From assembly GCF_030758935.1 (NCBI RefSeq), contig NZ_CP132333.1:1-64000 (forward strand): 64,000 nucleotides of DNA, in the 5' to 3' direction. Under the pieces are notes generated by a model that saw only the letters and a list, made by a program, of their open reading frames with translations, did no database searches and was not told where the DNA came from. The stretch comes from Geothrix sp. PMB-07. GTDB lineage: Bacteria > Acidobacteriota > Holophagae > Holophagales > Holophagaceae. Position 1 is the stretch's first letter. Each line of letters begins with the position of its first letter. Positions 21,295-29,653 of this stretch are shown here, in pieces. The translations under genes were made by a program, and so were the position numbers.

Positions 21295-22329
21295 ATGAAC
21301 GCATCCCCCGCAGATCTCCGAGGCTGGCTCAGCGCCAGGCTGCAGGCCCTGTGCGCACCGGAGACCACCTCGGGCCGCGAAGATGAGGGCCTGCCCGCCC
21401 TGCTCCAGCTGCTTGGCGAATTGGGCGCCACCGTGGTGGAGCAGCCCGTGGCTGCGGGCCGCACCAATGTGTTGGCCCTGTGGGGCAGGCCACGGGTGCT
21501 CTTCTCCACCCACCTGGATACGGTGCCGCCGTACCTGCCTCCCAGGTTGGAGGGTGAGGTGCTTTGGGGCCGTGGCACCTGCGATGCCAAGGGCCAGGCG
21601 ATAGCCCAACTGGCGGCCATCCGCAGCCTCTTGGGCCAAGGCCAGCACGGCTTCGCGTGGCTGGGTGTGGTGGGCGAGGAGACCGACAGCGCCGGTGCCG
21701 CGGCGGCGCTTGGTCTGGCGGATCGGCTGCAGGATGTGAAGGCCCTCATCAATGGCGAACCCACCGAGCTGAAGTTGGGCACAGGCCAGCGCGGCGTGCA
21801 GCATGTCTGTCTTCATTGCAGCGGGCGCGCCGCCCACAGCGGCAGTCCCCAGCTGGGCCACAACGCCACCTGGCCCATGCTGGATTGGCTGCAGCGCCTG
21901 CGGGAACAGGCACGGCCCGTGGATCCGCTGCTGGGCCCTGAACTTTGGAACATCGGCCTCCTGCAGGCAGGTGAGGCGCTCAATTCGGTGCCGGCCCGCG
22001 CCGAGGCCCATCTGCTGGCGCGGGTGGTGCCCGGCAGTACCCTGCTGGAGGAGGTTCGGCGCTTGGCGCCTCCTGAAGGCACCGTGGACCTTCGTTTGAA
22101 TGAACCGGCAGATGTGTACCCGCAGGTGCCGGGCTTCGAGCATGCGCCGATGCCCTTCGGCTCGGACGCACCCGCGCTGCGGGCCTTGGTGCCCGACCGC
22201 ACCGTGGTGCTGGCGGGGCCCGGCAGCATTGCCGTGGCACATACCCTCGATGAACACATCACACTGAGCGACCTCGAGGCCGGCGTGGATCTCAACTGCC
22301 GCCTGGCCCTGCATTTCCTGGGAGACTAA
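21295..22329 (+). CDS. dapE: M20-family deacylase, probable succinyl-diaminopimelate desuccinylase
   Basis: A 344-residue zinc hydrolase. The M20 metal ligands are visible: His73 and Asp75 in STHLDTVPP, Asp97 in GRGTCDAKG, Glu128-Glu129 in VVGEETDSAG and a C-terminal His in VAHTLDEHI. As DapE it would remove succinate from N-succinyl-LL-diaminopimelate. It is somewhat shorter than typical DapE (about 375 residues) and the family includes ArgE and LysK, so the function is taken mainly from its place as first gene of the riboswitch-led lysine operon that also encodes DapD. A GAGG site precedes the ATG; asd starts three bases after its stop. Confidence 0.8.
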   Translation: MNASPADLRGWLSARLQALCAPETTSGREDEGLPALLQLLGELGATVVEQPVAAGRTNVLALWGRPRVLFSTHLDTVPPYLPPRLEGEVLWGRGTCDAKGQAIAQLAAIRSLLGQGQHGFAWLGVVGEETDSAGAAAALGLADRLQDVKALINGEPTELKLGTGQRGVQHVCLHCSGRAAHSGSPQLGHNATWPMLDWLQRLREQARPVDPLLGPELWNIGLLQAGEALNSVPARAEAHLLARVVPGSTLLEEVRRLAPPEGTVDLRLNEPADVYPQVPGFEHAPMPFGSDAPALRALVPDRTVVLAGPGSIAVAHTLDEHITLSDLEAGVDLNCRLALHFLGD

Positions 22330-22332
22330 ACC

Positions 22333-23391
22333 ATGACCACCCCCAAGATTCCCGTCACTGTTCTGGGCGCCACTGGCGTCGTGGGCCAGCGCTTCGTGCG
22401 GCGCCTGGCGAACCATCCCCTCTTCCGCATCGAGCATCTCGCGGCCAGCGAACGCAGCGCGGGCAAGCGCTACCGCGACGCCTGCGCCTGGCGCTTGGAT
22501 GGCGAGCCCTATGGCGGCCTGGGCGATCAGGTGATGGCTGAGGGCACGCCAGAGTTTGCCTTGTCGCCGGTGGTGTTCAGCGCCTTGGATACCGCGCCGG
22601 CCCAGGAGTTGGAACCGGCCTTTGCCAAGGCGGGTGCGATGGTCTTCTCCAATGCCGCGGCCTTCCGCATGGCGCCGGACGTGCCCCTGCTGGTACCGGA
22701 AGTGAATGCCGCTCATCTGGGATTGCTGGACATCCAGCGTCACCACCACGGCTGGAAGGGGGGCATCGTCACCAACGCCAACTGCACCGCTACCGTGCTG
22801 GTCATGGCGCTGGCGCCGCTGCATGAAGCCTTCGGCGTGGAAGCCGTGATGATGTCATCGATGCAGGCCATCAGCGGCGCGGGCTATCCCGGTGTGGCCA
22901 GCCTCGACATCCTCGGCAACGTCATCCCCTTCATCCGCAACGAAGAGCCGAAGGTGGAAGAGGAAACGCCCAAGATGCTGGGCCGTTTCAATGGCACCAC
23001 CGTGGACCTGGCGCCCATGGCTGTGAGTGCCCTCTGCCATCGCGTTCCGGTCATCGAGGGACACACCGAGGCCGTGAGTGTGCGGCTGAAGGGCAACCCC
23101 TCTCTGGAGGCGGTGCGCGAGGCCTTCCAGAACTGGAAACCCGAGCCCCAGCGCCTGGGCCTGTTTTCGGCGCCCGCTGTGCCCATCCACGTGCACACCC
23201 TGGAGGACCGTCCCCAGGTGCGCCGCGATGTGGAGAAGGATGAGGGCATGAGCATCCATGTGGGCCGCATCCGCGCTTGTCCGATTCTCGGCCTGAAGTT
23301 CGCGCTGCTGGGCCACAACACAGAGCGTGGCGCCGCCGGCGGCAGCATCCTCAATGCCGAATTGGCCCACGCGAAGGGATACCTCCGATGA
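22333..23391 (+). CDS. asd: Aspartate-semialdehyde dehydrogenase
   Basis: A 352-residue NADP-dependent enzyme converting aspartyl phosphate to aspartate semialdehyde, the common precursor of lysine, threonine and methionine. The nucleotide loop GATGVVGQR (residues 12-20) and the catalytic block TNANCTATV with Cys151 are present, followed by SSMQAISGAGYPG. The overall sequence fits the archaeal/fungal-like Asd branch rather than the E. coli type. It overlaps lysC by ATGA (23388-23391). A cysteine-free relative lies at 6355. Confidence 0.95.
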   Translation: MTTPKIPVTVLGATGVVGQRFVRRLANHPLFRIEHLAASERSAGKRYRDACAWRLDGEPYGGLGDQVMAEGTPEFALSPVVFSALDTAPAQELEPAFAKAGAMVFSNAAAFRMAPDVPLLVPEVNAAHLGLLDIQRHHHGWKGGIVTNANCTATVLVMALAPLHEAFGVEAVMMSSMQAISGAGYPGVASLDILGNVIPFIRNEEPKVEEETPKMLGRFNGTTVDLAPMAVSALCHRVPVIEGHTEAVSVRLKGNPSLEAVREAFQNWKPEPQRLGLFSAPAVPIHVHTLEDRPQVRRDVEKDEGMSIHVGRIRACPILGLKFALLGHNTERGAAGGSILNAELAHAKGYLR

Positions 23392-24728
23392 TCGTCCTCA
23401 AGTTCGGCGGCAGCAGCGTCGCGGATGCCGCCTGCATGCGGCAGGTGGCCAAGCTCGCGGAAGCGGCTCTGCCCAAGGCGCCGCTGGTGGTGCTGTCGGC
23501 CATGGGCAAGACCACCAACGGGCTCTTCGATGCGGCCAAGGCGGCCGAAGCGGGCGATCTGGCCGAGGCCATGTCCCGGCAGCGGGCCCTGATGGCGGCG
23601 CACCGGAAAGCCGCGGAGGAGCTGTTTGACGGCGTCGTGCCGGAGTCCTTGGACGTGGCGCTGACGGATCTCTTCGGCGAGTTGGAACTCCTGCTTCGCG
23701 GTGTGGCCATGCTGCGGGAGTTGAGTGCGCGCAGCATGGATGCCATCGCCTCCCTTGGTGAACGGCTGTCCACGCGGATCTTCGCGGCCTTCGTGGGCGG
23801 AGCCTGGGTGGATGCCCGCACGGTGCTGCGCACCAACGAAGTGTTTGGCGAGGCGGTGCCCCAGCAGGCGGCGATCCGCCCGCTGGCTGAGATGCACCTG
23901 AAGTCTCAGGTGGGCCCGGGTCGTGTAGTGGTCACCCAGGGCTACATCGGCGCCACGGAAGATGGCCTCACCACCACGTTGGGACGGGGCGGCAGCGACT
24001 ACTCTGCCGCCCTTTTCGGCGCCGCTCTGGATGCGGAGGAGGTGCAGATCTGGACCGACGTCGAGGGCGTGCTCACCTGCGATCCGCGCATCGTGCCCGA
24101 CGCGCTGCCCATCCCCGACCTGAGTTTTGCTGAAGCCGCCGAGCTGGCCGCGTTCGGCGCCAAAGTACTGCACCCCGCCACCATCCAGCCCGCGGTGGAG
24201 GCGCGCATCCCCGTCACCGTGCGTCACACGCAGAAACCCGAGGGACGCTTCACCACCATCTCCGCGGAAGTGCGCAGCGGGGGCCCCATCACGGCGCTGG
24301 CCAGCCGCGGTCCCGTGACGGTGCTGACCGTAAGCAGCACGCGGATGCTCGCGCAGAGCGGTTTCCTGGCCCGGCTCTTCGAGGTGTTCGGCCGCCGCGG
24401 CGTGAGCGTCGACCTGGTGGCTACGGCAGAAGTCAGCGTGTCCCTCACCGTGGAAGCGGACGTGCCCTTGAAGCCGCTTCTCCAGGATTTGTCGGCCTTC
24501 GCCACTGTGGAAATCCACGAAGGCCGGGCCATCATCGCGGCCGTGGGTGAGCGCCTGAAATCCACGCCGGGCCTGGGCGCGAAGCTGTTGACGGCCCTGG
24601 GTGACATCAACGTCGAAATGATCAGCATGGGTGCCAACGAAATCAACCTGAGCCTGGTGGTGCAGGAGGAACGCACGGCGGAGGCCCTGCGGCGCCTGCA
24701 TCAGGTGCTGGTGGGAACGCCGTCATGA
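23388..24728 (+). CDS. lysC: Aspartate kinase
   Basis: A 446-residue monofunctional aspartokinase that phosphorylates aspartate, the committing step of the pathway. It begins [14 protein letters not shown] (kinase signature KFGGSSV, residues 5-11) and contains [16 protein letters not shown] and [15 protein letters not shown]. Two ACT-type regulatory domains follow from about residue 300 ([12 protein letters not shown], then [19 protein letters not shown]), so end-product inhibition is expected in addition to the riboswitch. The longer open frame starting at 23277 overlaps asd and is rejected; ATG 23388 overlaps the asd stop. The stop overlaps the dapB start by ATGA. Confidence 0.96.
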
Positions 24729-25546
24729 GCGGCCTGCGCATCGGCCTTTTCGGACGGGGCCGCCTGGGCTCGGCCATCCTCGCCGAGGCGGGCGGCGGCT
24801 TGACGTGGGTGGTCGATCAGGGTGAAACGCCCTCCGCAGCGGTGGATGTGGCCATCGACGCGAGCGTAGCCGGGGCTGTGGCCTCCCACCTGGACTGGGC
24901 CCTGGAGACCGGCACGGACTTGGTCATCGGCGCCACGGGCTGGTCCATTCCAGATCTCGAAGCCCGCGTGGCAGGCCGCATCGGCCTGCTGACGGCCACC
25001 AATTTTTCGCTGACCGTCGCCCTCATGGCCCGCCTGGCCACGGTGATGGGGCGCTTTGCGGCGCTGGATCCGTCCCGTGATCCCTACCTGGTGGAGCATC
25101 ATCACCGTCTCAAGGCCGACGCCCCTTCGGGCACGGCGAAGACCTTGGCGGCGGCCGTGATGGCGGGCTGCCCCCGCAAGACGGAATGGACCCTGGACAC
25201 GCCAGAACCGCACCAGCTCAGTGTGGGGGTGGTGCGGGCCGGGGCCGAATTCGGCACCCACAGCGTGGGCCTCGATGCCCCCGCTGAGGTTTTGGAGCTC
25301 ACGCACACGGCCCGTTCCCGCGCACCCTTCGCCCAGGGCGCCCTGGCTGCAGCGCAGTGGCTGCATGGGCGGAAGGGCCTCTTCACCATGGATGACGTGG
25401 CGGCGGACCTGCTCGATCCCTTGTTCGACAACCTCAACGCGGGGAGACCACCTGCTCGCGGTGCGCGCTCTACGTCCCCCCTCGTGCTCCCCCACGCGGC
25501 ATCCGGGCAAAACCCGGAGGTCGCGTCTCCTGGAGGCAAGCCATGA
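24725..25546 (+). CDS. dapB: 4-hydroxy-tetrahydrodipicolinate reductase
   Basis: A 273-residue NAD(P)H reductase. The Rossmann loop GLFGRGRLGSAI lies at residues 7-18 and the DapB signature is EHHHRLKADAPSGTAKT, with His125-His127, Lys130 and the PSGTA loop (134-138). The conserved fold ends near LDPLFDNLNAG (about residue 245); the last 30 residues are proline- and serine-rich and unlike other DapB proteins, perhaps former leader DNA of dapA now read through. A 6-bp hairpin TCCGGG/CCCGGA lies in that tail. The gene overlaps both neighbours by ATGA. Confidence 0.94.
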   Translation: MSGLRIGLFGRGRLGSAILAEAGGGLTWVVDQGETPSAAVDVAIDASVAGAVASHLDWALETGTDLVIGATGWSIPDLEARVAGRIGLLTATNFSLTVALMARLATVMGRFAALDPSRDPYLVEHHHRLKADAPSGTAKTLAAAVMAGCPRKTEWTLDTPEPHQLSVGVVRAGAEFGTHSVGLDAPAEVLELTHTARSRAPFAQGALAAAQWLHGRKGLFTMDDVAADLLDPLFDNLNAGRPPARGARSTSPLVLPHAASGQNPEVASPGGKP

Positions 25547-26445
25547 CCCTGGAACTCTCCGGTCTCGCCGTGGCCCTGGCCACGCCCTTCTCGGCTTCGG
25601 GCGAGGTGGACCTCGCCGCCTTCCGAAAACTGGTGCGGCATGTGGTGGGCGGTGGCGTGGACACCCTGGTGCCCCTGGGCACGACGGGGGAGGCTTCCAC
25701 CCTGGATGACGCGGAGCGCGATGCGGTGATCGCTGCCTGCCTGGAGGAGAGCGGCGGCCGCCCGGTGGTGGTGGGCACGGGTTCCAACGCCACGCGCCAT
25801 GCCGCGGCCATGACGAAGCGGGCCCAGGCTCTGGGGGCCGCGGGTGCTCTGGTGGTGACGCCCTACTACAACAAGCCCAATGCCGATGGCTTGGTGGCCC
25901 ACTATGAGGCCATCGCGGAGGCCGCGCCGGGTCTGCCTCTGGTGGCCTACAACGTGCCGAGCCGCACCGGTCTGAATGTGACACCTGCCGTGTTGATGCG
26001 GCTCTGGGAGAACCCCCAGGTGGTGGCTGTGAAGGAAAGCAGCGGCAGCCTGGCGCAGATTGCCGAAGTGGGCCGCACCCTGCCCAAGGGCAAGACGCTG
26101 CTCTCGGGCGATGACAACCTGGCCCTGGCGGCGATGGCCGTGGGCGCCACGGGTCTGGTGTCCGTGCTGGGCAATGTGCTGCCCCGCGAAACGGCCGCGC
26201 TGGTCGCTGCGGCCCGCCATGGCCACGGCGCGGAAGCCCTGCGCATGCACCAGCGCCTGCTGCCCCTGATGGACGCGTTGTTTGTGGAGGTCAATCCTGT
26301 GCCCCTGAAGGTGGCCTTGAAGCTGCTGGGGCTGGGCTCGGACGCCGTGCGCCTGCCCCTGGCCTGTGCTTCCGCCGCCACCCACACCCTTGTGGCCGAG
26401 GCGCTGTGCCTCTCGGCCGATGGCACCTTTCCAGGAGTGAAGTGA
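25543..26445 (+). CDS. dapA: 4-hydroxy-tetrahydrodipicolinate synthase
   Basis: A 300-residue TIM-barrel aldolase that condenses aspartate semialdehyde with pyruvate. Visible active-site elements are the GTTGE motif (Thr47, Thr48), Tyr136 in [10 protein letters not shown] and Schiff-base Lys164 in [14 protein letters not shown] lies ten bases before the ATG, which overlaps the dapB stop by four bases. It ends sharing one base with the dapD start. Full length and conventional. Confidence 0.97.
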
Positions 26446-27266
26446 TGGTCGTCGACGTGGATTCCATCCGTTCGTTTTTCAGCCAGGGGCAGGACTGCCT
26501 GCTGACGGATCCCCAGGCTCCGGCCATGCACCAGCTGCTGGTGGCGGCCCTGGAGAAGGGGATGATCCGCGCGGCTGAACGCCAGGAGGATGGCACCTGG
26601 CACACCAATGCCTGGGTGAAGCAGGCCATCCTTTGTGGCTTCCGCCGCACCAGCCTCGTCGAGATGCCAGGTGCGGGCTTTCCCATGTTCGACAAGACCG
26701 CCTATCCTCCCCGGCACTTCGGCCTCGAGGATGCAGTGCGCCTGGTGCCAGGCGGCACGGCGGTGCGTCGGGGCGCCCATATCGCCCGGGGCGTGGTGCT
26801 CATGCCCCCGGCCTACGTGAACGTGGGCGCCTTCGTAGACGAGGGCACCATGGTGGACAGTCACGCGCTGGTGGGCAGCTGTGCGCAGATCGGCAAGCGT
26901 GTGCATCTTTCCGCCGCAGCCCAGATCGGTGGCGTGCTCGAGCCTGCCGGTGCCCAGCCTGTCATCGTGGAGGATGAGGCCTTCATAGGAGGTCTGGTGG
27001 GGCTCTTCGAGGGCATCGTGGTGCGCAAGCGCGCGGTACTGGCCTCGGGTGTGATCATCACCGGCAGCACCGTGATCTACGATCTGGTGAATGGCTGCGA
27101 GCTGCGCCAGGAGGTGCCCGAAGGCGCCGTGGTGGTGCCGGGTTCCCGTCCTGCCTCGGGCGACTACGCCAAGGCCCACGGCCTCCAGCTGGCAGCGCCC
27201 TGCATCGTGAAGTACCGCGACGACAAGACCGACGCCGCCACGGCGCTGGAACAAGCGCTTCGGTAA
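26445..27266 (+). CDS. dapD: Tetrahydrodipicolinate N-succinyltransferase
   Basis: A 273-residue left-handed beta-helix acyltransferase. Hexapeptide turns are plain ([50 protein letters not shown]). The block [20 protein letters not shown] is typical of DapD. It transfers succinate from succinyl-CoA, committing the cell to the succinylase branch. ATG 26445 shares a base with the dapA stop (TGATG); an earlier in-frame start at 26406 lies inside dapA and is rejected. A large inverted repeat follows before the next gene. Confidence 0.96.
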
Positions 27267-27383: not shown

Positions 27384-28499
27384 ATGAATCCCGCCAGCCG
27401 CCTATCTCTGCTGAAACCTTCCCCCATCCGCGCCATCACCGATGGCACGCCGCCGGGGGCCATTCCTCTGGGCCTGGGTGAACCCACTTGGGACTTGCCG
27501 GAAGTGGGCCGCAAGGCCCTGCTGCGGGCCTCTGGCCCCTGTCCCTACGTGCCCCACGCGGGGCTCACGGAACTGCGTCGGGCCGTCGGCGCCTTCCATG
27601 GGGCCCACCTGGATGAAGTGCTCATCACCACCGGCTCGCAGGGCGCGCTGTTCGCGCTTTTCCAGGCCTGGGTGAACCCGGGCACCAAGGTGCTCGTGCC
27701 TGATCCGGGCTTCGTGGCCTATCCGGCCCTGGCCTTCATGGCCGGGGCCGAGCCGGTCCCCTACCGGTTGTCGGCGGAGCGTTTCCGCCTGGATGCGGAT
27801 GAGCTGATCCGGGTACTGGAGGCGACGCCAGAAACATCAGCCGTGGTGCTCAACCTGCCCTCCAATCCCACAGGCGGCGGTGGCGATCTGGATGCCCTGC
27901 GCCGCGTGGCCGAGGCCTGCACCGCACGGGGTGTGCTTCTCATCTCGGATGAGGTGTACCGGGACCTGCACTTCGGGGTGCGGGCGCCGAGCCTGCGGGA
28001 TGTCACGGATCGCGGCGTGGTCACCAGTTCCGTGAGCAAGGGCTGGGGGGCGCCGGGCCTGCGCGTGGGCTGGGCCGTGGGGGATCCCGCCTGGCTGGCG
28101 CCCGCGCGGGTGGTGCATGGCTATGCGGTGACCGGCACGGCCACACCCGCCCAATGGGCCGCGCTGGCGCTGCTGGAACACTCTGACGCGGTGCTGGCCG
28201 AAGCCCGGGCCGCCGTGCAGCTGCGTTGGGAAGCTCTGGCTTCGGCCTTGCGCGAGGAACTGGGCCAGGTGGTCACACCGCCTGATGGCACCTTCTACCA
28301 CTTCATGGCCCTCCCCCCTGCGGCCCACGCCGATCCCCTGGCCTTCGCGCTGAAACTGCGCGATGAGGCCAAGGTGGTGCTCATCCCGGGCCTGGCTTTT
28401 GGCGAGGGCGGTCGCGGCCACGCGCGCCTCAGCTTCGCGGCCACGCCGGAGCAGCTGCGCGAAGGTGTGCGGCGACTGGCGCCCTACTGGAAGGCGTGA
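27384..28499 (+). CDS. dapC: Aminotransferase class I/II, probable N-succinyldiaminopimelate aminotransferase
   Basis: A 371-residue fold-type I aminotransferase. Seen are LGEPTWDLP near the N-terminus, TTGSQGALF (residues 82-90), LNLPSNPTGG (157-166), ISDEVYRDLHF and PLP-lysine Lys219 in SSVSKGWGAPGLRVGW. Placed between dapD and lysA it most likely supplies the DapC step, transferring an amino group to N-succinyl-2-amino-6-ketopimelate. An LL-DAP aminotransferase (DapL) is less likely given dapD and dapE in the operon. It has its own good ribosome site (GAGG) after the inverted repeat and overlaps lysA by four bases. Confidence 0.85.
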   Translation: MNPASRLSLLKPSPIRAITDGTPPGAIPLGLGEPTWDLPEVGRKALLRASGPCPYVPHAGLTELRRAVGAFHGAHLDEVLITTGSQGALFALFQAWVNPGTKVLVPDPGFVAYPALAFMAGAEPVPYRLSAERFRLDADELIRVLEATPETSAVVLNLPSNPTGGGGDLDALRRVAEACTARGVLLISDEVYRDLHFGVRAPSLRDVTDRGVVTSSVSKGWGAPGLRVGWAVGDPAWLAPARVVHGYAVTGTATPAQWAALALLEHSDAVLAEARAAVQLRWEALASALREELGQVVTPPDGTFYHFMALPPAAHADPLAFALKLRDEAKVVLIPGLAFGEGGRGHARLSFAATPEQLREGVRRLAPYWKA

Positions 28500-29653
28500 T
28501 GACCAGCCTCTTTGCCTTCGATGATGCTGCCTGCCTGGCCCTCACCGAAACCCATGGCACACCCTGCTTTACCTACTCGGGTGCGGCGGCGGAGGCGCAG
28601 TTTCGTGCGTTACGCACGGCACTGCCGGATCGCGTCCGGGTGGCCTACGCGGTGAAGGCCAATGCCCATGGCCGCCTCTTGGCCCGTTTCGCATCGCTGG
28701 GTGCCAGCTTCGACTGCGCTTCCATCGGCGAGCTGGAGCGGGTGGAGGCACTGAGCCTGCCGCCCGGGCGCACCTTTTTCGCGGGGCCGGGCAAGCGCGA
28801 AGCAGAACTGCGCAAGGCCCTGGCCATGGGCGTTCGCATCCAGGCAGAGGGCTTCGAGGATCTCGCCCGCATCGATGCCCTGGTGGATCGCGAAACCGCC
28901 GTGAACCTGCGGGTGCACCCGGCTTTCGACATCGATGAGGGCAACCGCATCATCGGTGGCAGCGGTCCTTCTGCGTTTGGCGTGGATGAAGAGGCGGTGC
29001 CGGACTTGCTGGCACGGGCCGCCAACCTGCGTCATGTCCGCATCCGCGGCCTGCATGTCTTTGCAGCCAGCAATCAGCGGGATGCGTCCAAACTGCTGGC
29101 CATCCACGGTGCGGTGTTGGCGCTGGCCCAGCGATTGAGCGATGCGCACGGCCTGGTGTTCGAGCAGATCGATCTGGGCGGTGGACTGGGCATCCCCTAT
29201 GAACCCGATCAAAGCCCTCTCGACGTGCAGGCTCTTGGAATCGGATTGTCGGCCCTGCTGGCCGCCCACCCCTGGTTCACAGGCGAGCTCATTCTGGAGC
29301 CGGGTCGCTTCCTGGCTGGGCCCTGCGGGGTGTACCTGGCCAAGGTGGTGCGGATCAAGGAAAGCCGGGGCACCCGCTTCGCCATTCTGGAAGGCGGCAT
29401 CAACCACCTGCTGCGCCCGCTGCTCACGGGCGAACCCTTTCCGGTGAGGGCCGTGGGCAAAGGCAGGGGCGACCATCCGTATACCTTGGCGGGGCCCCTT
29501 TGTACCAGCCTGGATCGCCTCGGCGAGGTGCTGCTGCCAGAGCTGAGCGCCGGGGATCTGCTGGCCTTCGGCACCACGGGGGCTTACGGCCTCAGCGAAG
29601 GCATGACCCACTTCCTAAGCCACCCCGTGCCACCCGAAGTCTGGGTGGACTGA
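28496..29653 (+). CDS. lysA: Fold-type III PLP decarboxylase, probable diaminopimelate decarboxylase (divergent)
   Basis: A 385-residue alanine-racemase-fold decarboxylase. PLP Lys54 (VAYAVKANAHG), the DLGGGLGIPY glycine loop and EPGRFLAGPC (268-277) are conserved. The substrate-side motifs differ from standard LysA: HVGSQ is replaced by HVFAASNQ (187-194) and CESGD by CTSLD (336-340), and it is shorter than the usual 415-420 residues. These features are closer to the PEP-CTERM/exosortase-associated decarboxylases. Its position as last gene of the riboswitch-controlled lysine operon argues that it is the working LysA. The start ATG overlaps the dapC stop; a second ATG follows directly. Confidence 0.78.
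   Translation: MMTSLFAFDDAACLALTETHGTPCFTYSGAAAEAQFRALRTALPDRVRVAYAVKANAHGRLLARFASLGASFDCASIGELERVEALSLPPGRTFFAGPGKREAELRKALAMGVRIQAEGFEDLARIDALVDRETAVNLRVHPAFDIDEGNRIIGGSGPSAFGVDEEAVPDLLARAANLRHVRIRGLHVFAASNQRDASKLLAIHGAVLALAQRLSDAHGLVFEQIDLGGGLGIPYEPDQSPLDVQALGIGLSALLAAHPWFTGELILEPGRFLAGPCGVYLAKVVRIKESRGTRFAILEGGINHLLRPLLTGEPFPVRAVGKGRGDHPYTLAGPLCTSLDRLGEVLLPELSAGDLLAFGTTGAYGLSEGMTHFLSHPVPPEVWVD

Follow-up and report, generated by a model that had tools for sequence, protein, structure and literature searches.

A probable undescribed form of the final step in lysine synthesis, encoded at the end of the dap operon of Geothrix and its relatives

Introduction

Which enzyme completes lysine synthesis in Geothrix sp. 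PMB-07 and related Holophagaceae? The 64,000-nucleotide stretch of DNA analyzed here (the window; contig NZ_CP132333.1, positions 1 to 64,000) contains a lysine operon whose last gene takes the place expected of lysA, the gene for diaminopimelate (DAP) decarboxylase. A first-pass annotation had pointed to altered substrate motifs in its product and had left it between a new LysA subclass and a displaced enzyme. The DAP routes to lysine are taken to share LysA as their final step, and the enzyme is sought with profiles. We find that the product of this gene is LysA-like by context and is not LysA by score, tree or substrate residues. Since it comes from a non-LysA branch and lacks the LysA substrate glutamate, it probably represents a form of the final lysine-synthesis step that has yet to be described. 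With a probability of roughly 60%, by our estimate, it represents a distinct subclass of DAP-pathway decarboxylases that forms lysine from meso-DAP and descends, within the fold-type III family, from its BtrK/exosortase-type side. We refer to the clade as the CTSLD type, a label coined in this analysis.

28496..29653, + strand: CTSLD-type decarboxylase (putative LysA substitute), 385 amino acids, GTG start

Sequence affinities and phylogeny

The protein contains both Pfam domains of the fold-type III decarboxylases (PF02784, 135 bits; PF00278, 64 bits), in agreement with its initial description as a member of this fold closing the lysine operon. None of the more specific profiles is matched at its curated cut-off: the top NCBIfam match is TIGR03099, the exosortase-associated decarboxylase dCO2ase_PEP1 (267.9 bits; cut-off 478.45), the lysA equivalog TIGR01048 gives 240.2 bits (cut-off 297.9) and the carboxynorspermidine decarboxylase profile NspC (TIGR01047) 18.4 bits against a cut-off of 409. 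In a sequence search of the PDB the top match is BtrK (7ru7 and 2j66, 172 bits), the best LysA being 3n2b with 156 bits. The chain is indeed about 30 residues shorter than the 420-residue LysA of E. coli, mostly through the missing C-terminal tail in the alignment, and covers positions 13-395 of the 417 of TIGR01048; since the LysA of T. maritima (2yxx) has 386 residues, length alone is no diagnostic, and we discarded shortness as a mark of a non-LysA protein.

In a tree of 65 sequences (IQ-TREE, LG+C20) the CTSLD-type proteins form one group (support 99/95), which joins the PEP1-like proteins and BtrK (100/96) apart from LysA; the conventional LysAs, the apparently exported and E. coli-type LysAs discussed below and a CENND type are all separate from it. 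Forcing the clade together with LysA is rejected by the approximately unbiased (AU) test (p 0.0003, and 0.030 with the CENND rows allowed on the LysA side). Long branches lead to BtrK and one CDxxD row, so that the exclusion of the clade from LysA is more certain than the identity of its exact sister. The available portion of PMC7857480 describes BtrK, SbnH and FigC as one clade with the DAP decarboxylases, acting on acylated amino acids. The likeness to exosortase-associated decarboxylases proposed in the first pass survives in the top profile match, the tree and the AU tests, but fails at the TIGR03099 cut-off and in the genome itself, where no match to the exosortase profile PF09721 was found at E <= 0.01, so that an exosortase locus was rejected as the context of the enzyme.

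The CENND-type clade (loci L039-L053; Selenomonas, Methanohalophilus, Methanolobus, Clostridia and others) is another LysA-like group, with CENND, GAHG and ASN/ISN motifs. It too departs from HIGSQ, but retains the Glu, RPxxY and NYN.

Residues conserved and replaced in the clade

The clade alignment comprises 59 distinct sequences, that of the window included, at 39-100% identity to the latter (60 rows with the query row), and was compared with 24 LysA and five PEP1/BtrK rows. The relevant segments, placed by alignment with LysA, are as follows (PLP, pyridoxal 5'-phosphate):

28655..28657, + strand: codon of K54 (KAN), the PLP Schiff-base lysine, equivalent to K54 of E. coli LysA; 60/60 rows
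28937..28981, + strand: lid segment EGNRIIGGSGPSAFG, residues 148-162, including the clade-only E148
29048..29077, + strand: GLHVFAASNQ, residues 185-194, with F189 for the PLP-stacking His (E. coli H191, T. maritima H179)
29297..29308, + strand: EPGR, residues 268-271; R271 is the first distal-carboxylate arginine (T. maritima R249)
29402..29428, + strand: NHLLRPLLT, residues 303-311; R307 is the second distal-carboxylate arginine (T. maritima R285)
29501..29515, + strand: CTSLD, residues 336-340; catalytic C336 retained, T337 for the substrate Glu (E. coli E343, T. maritima E315)
29579..29626, + strand: GAYGLSEGMTHFLSHP, residues 362-377; PLP-phosphate Tyr kept, with the clade-only E368 and M370

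K54, the catalytic C336 and D340, the Asp of CxxxD, are present in 60/60 clade rows, as are both R271 and R307. According to the available portion of PMC8277567, the distal carboxylate of DAP is bound in T. maritima by the equivalents of these arginines, R249 and R285, and its distal amino group by E315 of the partner subunit, which also contributes a lid acting at the D-carboxylate that reacts; H179 is stacked against PLP. Like LysA, the clade has Arg at position 307, where 5/5 PEP1/BtrK rows have Ala. The substrate Glu of CExxD, invariant in the LysA rows (24/24), is Thr throughout the clade (60/60) and in PEP1/BtrK; similarly, the PLP-stacking position is His in 24/24 LysA rows, Phe in 60/60 clade rows and F or Y in PEP1/BtrK. 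The first-pass reading of CESGD as CTSLD is thus borne out at residues 336-340. Its pairing of HVGSQ with HVFAASNQ identified a motif that is present, albeit in the wrong register: F189 aligns with the stacking His, S192 retains the PLP-phosphate Ser, N193 stands for the Gln of LysA HIGSQ, and H187 is an upstream, less conserved His.

Further replacements accompany these. The Tyr following LLRP in LysA is lost in NHLLRPLLT; the lid T157 of 24/24 LysA rows is G in the clade and in PEP1/BtrK, the lid motif reading sTG..KFG in LysA and MGG-P..FG in BtrK and PEP1; and FLSHP is found in the clade, as in PEP1, where LysA has SNYNxRP. SbnH likewise has AGRP.QFG in its lid, FLSHP in its tail and CTPKD as the catalytic loop. 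Of all rows compared, only those of the CTSLD clade typically carry E148 and E368, the latter being situated four residues after Y364, the counterpart of the phosphate-binding Tyr. Wherever aligned, the 59 distinct clade sequences are unchanged at K54, R271, R307, C336, T337, D340, F189, A191 and N193, and likewise at E148, G154, E368, M370, F373, L374 and H376. Judged from the alignment, the invariance of T337, F189, A191, N193, E148 and E368 at 39-100% identity is not chance.

Genomic context

The decarboxylase gene closes an operon with the order M20 deacylase (probable dapE)-asd-lysC-dapB-dapA-dapD-PLP aminotransferase (probable dapC)-decarboxylase, its GTG start codon overlapping the aminotransferase stop codon. 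The upstream genes are:

21295..22329, + strand: M20 deacylase, probable dapE; DapE/ArgE-type profiles, none over cut-off among the 25 matches listed
22333..23391, + strand: asd, aspartate-semialdehyde dehydrogenase; NF006416 over cut-off
23382..24728, + strand: lysC, aspartokinase; NF006570 over cut-off
24725..25546, + strand: dapB; TIGR00036, 100 bits, below the cut-off of 122
25543..26445, + strand: dapA; TIGR00674 over cut-off
26406..27266, + strand: dapD, tetrahydrodipicolinate N-succinyltransferase; NF008808, 294.5 bits, over cut-off
27384..28499, + strand: PLP aminotransferase, probable dapC; 71 NCBIfam families match, none over cut-off among the 25 matches listed

The next gene, on the opposite strand, ends 7 bp downstream of the decarboxylase gene. 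No carrier-protein gene adjoins the latter and there is no gene-sized gap, the space before the aminotransferase gene being about 120 bp. We examined 47 clade loci, in which a few genomes are represented twice; wherever the sequence extends 3 kb or more upstream (39 loci, among them Acidobacteriota from outside the family), the decarboxylase gene is preceded by dapB, dapA and dapD in the same orientation (39/39). In six Acidobacteriota genomes outside the family the decarboxylase gene comes directly after dapD, 12-90 bp downstream. In five family loci (L007, L008, L014, L019, L035), 0.6-1.9 kb separates the aminotransferase and decarboxylase genes.

The genome (4.24 Mb, one contig, 98% complete) has no canonical lysA elsewhere, the kind of gene that the first pass had suggested looking for: profile searches with PF02784 and TIGR01048 return only two places, and the second was rejected as LysA, being the biosynthetic arginine decarboxylase SpeA (NF003763, 834 bits). 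The LysX (aminoadipate) route was also rejected, the genome having weak matches only and none over cut-off; dapF is found over cut-off. The idea of a new LysA subclass gains from both the constant dap position and the lack of any other lysA candidate. The other initial suggestion, a displaced enzyme in the sense of a recent foreign arrival in the operon, finds no support, given the age of the clade and its constant linkage to dap genes.

Phyletic distribution

The CTSLD-type enzyme, at no less than 67% identity, is encoded by 58 of the 77 family genomes and by 40 of the 48 that are of good quality. Among the 19 genomes without it, the four with a dapD locus that were inspected (G029, G059, G072, G069) have contigs ending in or shortly after the aminotransferase gene; the others mostly have no dapD either, G058 showing partial dapD matches and G036 not being part of the dapD search. 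Three streamlined genomes (G001-G003, 0.9-1.2 Mb) have neither dapD nor the CTSLD-type gene. This fits the amino-acid auxotrophy that the available portion of PMC11561045 reports for a streamlined Holophagaceae genus; we infer from the similar size of about 1 Mb that G001-G003 may belong to it.

In a phylum sample of 297 genomes, 27 of them from the family, six Acidobacteriota outside the family (G338, G237, G251, G128, G167, G091) have the CTSLD type by motif or tree. Beyond the phylum, four metagenome-assembled genomes (MAGs) labelled Planctomycetota (L026, L027, L029, L031; 5-10 Mb) carry the dap operon and the enzyme at 67-72% identity. Their ribosomal protein S3 is 46-53% identical to that of the window genome, as against 88-92% within the family, so these loci reflect either operon transfer between phyla or a binning error.

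Separately, ten near-complete Acidobacteriota genomes of 4.2-4.6 Mb (G159, G176, G184, G193, G201, G230, G244, G272, G279, G322; f47, g77) yield very weak lysA-profile matches only (E ~1e-11 to 1e-14).

An apparently exported LysA in relatives

Matches over the LysA cut-off occur in 19/77 family genomes: 17 score about 440-453 bits, and the remaining two (G069, G071) are of the E. coli type, at about 400-412 bits. We examined 12 of the 17 high-scoring proteins, and 12/12 start with a stretch that by eye, no predictor being used, resembles a signal peptide. In 12/12 loci (L090-L101, e.g. L090:7127-16284) their genes belong to a conserved cluster, adjoining several members of the following set: Amidase_2, M15 D-Ala-D-Ala dipeptidase, alanine racemase, NlpC/P60, a C26 peptidase and proteins of the enolase superfamily and the beta-lactamase family. 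From its gene content this cluster resembles a system for periplasmic murein-peptide degradation, in which LysA may possibly convert DAP to lysine in the periplasm during murein scavenging. As this LysA is apparently exported and located in a murein cluster, it is unlikely to be biosynthetic, leaving biosynthesis to the CTSLD-type enzyme. Two genomes, G059 and G063, were considered as cases of canonical LysA displacing the CTSLD type and were rejected, their LysA being the apparently exported one; the dap contig of G059 ends inside the aminotransferase gene, and G063 has no dapD at all. In open PMC text we found no paper on either the CTSLD-type clade or the exported LysA, though such a paper may exist, and the available portions of GapMind (PMC7311316) and Price 2018 (PMC5764234) do not mention such a LysA.

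Predicted structure and proposed mechanism

An AlphaFold2 model of the 385-residue protein, built with 47 sequences, has a mean predicted local distance difference test score (pLDDT) of 91. Confidence is lowest in the lid (69 and 59 for blocks 141-150 and 151-160, with residues 151-155 below 50) and is also reduced in blocks 301-310, 361-370 and 371-380 (76, 74 and 67). Structural matches are tied between LysA (1twi; Z 44.5, root-mean-square deviation 2.2, 378 residues aligned) and BtrK (7ru7; Z 44.4, 2.5, 374 aligned), and the top Foldseek ranks are SbnH and BtrK. As far as the model goes, the fold does not decide the substrate, structure comparison failing to separate LysA from BtrK.

The position of the gene, its status as sole candidate, its conservation and the retained arginines make a lysine-forming role likely. 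We infer a homodimer that would bind PLP via K54, with R271 and R307 holding the distal carboxylate of meso-DAP as in LysA and C336 of the partner subunit protonating the product; compensation for the lost Glu might come from one of the clade-only glutamates, either E368, on a loop predicted to reach into the active site of the partner, or the lid residue E148. In T. maritima LysA the mutation E315T lowers the activity on meso-DAP from 675 to 26 mU/mg and raises that on 2-aminopimelate from 15 to 482 (PMC8277567, available portion). Since DAP activity is nearly abolished there, the naturally occurring Thr alongside two intact arginines implies that in the clade either another group contacts the amine, E368 and E148 being candidates, or the substrate is a different DAP-type compound. 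The available portion of PMC12599289 reports, from docking and mutation, that in a cyanobacterial LysA a Tyr eight residues past the phosphate-binding Tyr reaches the partner's active site; the likeness of the E368 position to that Tyr is suggestive only.

Several observations weigh against the use of meso-DAP. The substrate Glu is Thr in every clade member, the very change that in T. maritima costs most of the DAP activity. The LysA lid motif and the Tyr/Asn of SNYN, found in all or nearly all of the 24 LysA rows, are gone from the clade, and the motifs in their stead are common to BtrK, PEP1-like and SbnH proteins; two of these, BtrK and SbnH, are described as using acylated amino acids (PMC7857480, available portion). 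E148 lies in the low-confidence lid and E368 in a block with a mean pLDDT of 74. Finally, a search of open PMC text found no literature on lysine prototrophy of Geothrix or its growth without lysine; PMC13362970, in its available portion, describes Holophagaceae isolation and no defined-medium growth of Geothrix.

Alternative explanations

The alternative that fares best, which we regard as possible and rather improbable, retains lysine as the end product and has the enzyme decarboxylate an L-center, either of LL-DAP or of N-succinyl-LL-DAP to give N-succinyl-lysine. The latter would then be released by the DapE-like deacylase of the operon. Lysine would diverge ahead of the epimerase DapF, leaving meso-DAP to serve the cell wall only. 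The grouping with BtrK fits this scheme: the substrates described for BtrK and SbnH are an L-glutamyl carrier protein and N-citryl-L-2,3-diaminopropionate, respectively (PMC7857480, available portion). With BtrK, PEP1-like proteins and SbnH the clade shares the lid GG/AG-P-FG, a Thr following the catalytic Cys and FLSHP/FLGHP, features that it combines with the DAP-type R307 that PEP1/BtrK lack; moreover, the lid that differs is the element said to act at the D-carboxylate site in LysA. Such features may nevertheless reflect ancestry and not substrate choice. The gene is downstream of dapD in every locus with room, although this adjacency is equally expected of an ordinary dap operon. A split of the DAP and lysine branches would also suit the arrangement of dapF in the window genome (L110:428-2343; G000:C1 ~478.8-480.7 kb), where dapF and a second dapE-like M20 gene share an overlap of 4 nt; this second copy has 54% identity with the M20 gene of the window operon. 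However, a close second DapE homologue occurs in just two of the 11 family genomes searched (G000, G051), for which reason it was rejected as proof of a succinyl-lysine route; a search for close homologues found no close M20 match in five non-family genomes (G237, G251, G128, G167, G338).

That the protein is an ordinary LysA that has merely drifted, with descent and recognition unchanged, is unlikely. The operon position is that of lysA, and the catalytic residues and both arginines are intact, but the clade groups with PEP1-like proteins and BtrK, the LysA grouping is rejected by both AU tests, and the changed positions are, unlike those expected from drift, invariant across the whole range of identities.

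We consider it very unlikely that a carrier-protein or exosortase-type (PEP1/BtrK) decarboxylase stands in the lysine operon by chance and makes no lysine. The top profile match and the tree position would agree with this, but the genome has no exosortase match and would be left without any last lysine step, the AASGN insertion of the PEP1-like rows is absent, R307 is kept, and there is no room alongside for a carrier-protein gene, as opposed to the acyl carrier protein and AMP ligase beside the PEP1-like genes of loci L173 and L174. A polyamine-type activity (carboxynorspermidine, ornithine or lysine decarboxylase) shares the fold and is scarcely credible, given an NspC score of 18 bits against 409, the preserved EPGR/LLRP distal-carboxylate arginines and a Thr, not an acid, after the catalytic Cys.

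Implications

If the CTSLD type is the DAP-pathway decarboxylase that we favor, the last lysine step of this family is apparently performed by another branch of the fold, one whose score stays below the LysA threshold and in which the residue shown to determine LysA specificity is absent. Should meso-DAP be used, this would be a second solution to the recognition of the distal amino group; should it not be, lysine synthesis would have a new branch point. Either way auxotrophy predictions for the Holophagaceae are affected, and caution is due with the high-scoring "lysA" of many relatives, probably a murein-scavenging enzyme.

Comparison with known decarboxylases

With LysA (TIGR01048) the CTSLD type shares the fold, the PLP lysine, the catalytic Cys, both distal-carboxylate arginines and the place in the dap operon. 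It differs in the Glu-to-Thr and stacking His-to-Phe replacements, the lost Tyr after LLRP, the replaced lid and SNYN motifs, the absent C-terminal tail, the sub-cut-off score and its separate clade. The T. maritima E315T enzyme (PMC8277567, available portion) has the same Glu-to-Thr change with both arginines intact, but there it is a single engineered change yielding a preference for 2-aminopimelate, whereas in the clade it is fixed throughout, alongside others.

The dCO2ase_PEP1 family (TIGR03099) has in common with it CT.LD, Phe/Tyr at the stacking position, the lid GG and FLSHP, besides providing the top profile match. The CTSLD type lacks the AASGN insertion, which in PEP1 takes the place of the LLRP arginine (a feature read here off four PEP1-like rows and not drawn from any published family definition), keeps R307 where PEP1 has Ala, and is found in a dap operon, not in an exopolysaccharide-type locus, in a genome with no exosortase match. 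PEP1-like decarboxylases of other Acidobacteriota (L173:5991-9179, L174:5750-8885) adjoin, as seen by eye, genes for an acyl carrier protein and an AMP ligase, a neighborhood that fits a carrier-bound substrate like that of BtrK.

BtrK itself, the L-glutamyl-[BtrI carrier protein] decarboxylase, is the top PDB sequence match, ties for the best structure and is on the sister side of the tree; the CTSLD type is set apart from it by the presence of R307, the lack of an adjoining carrier-protein gene and its residence in a lysine operon.

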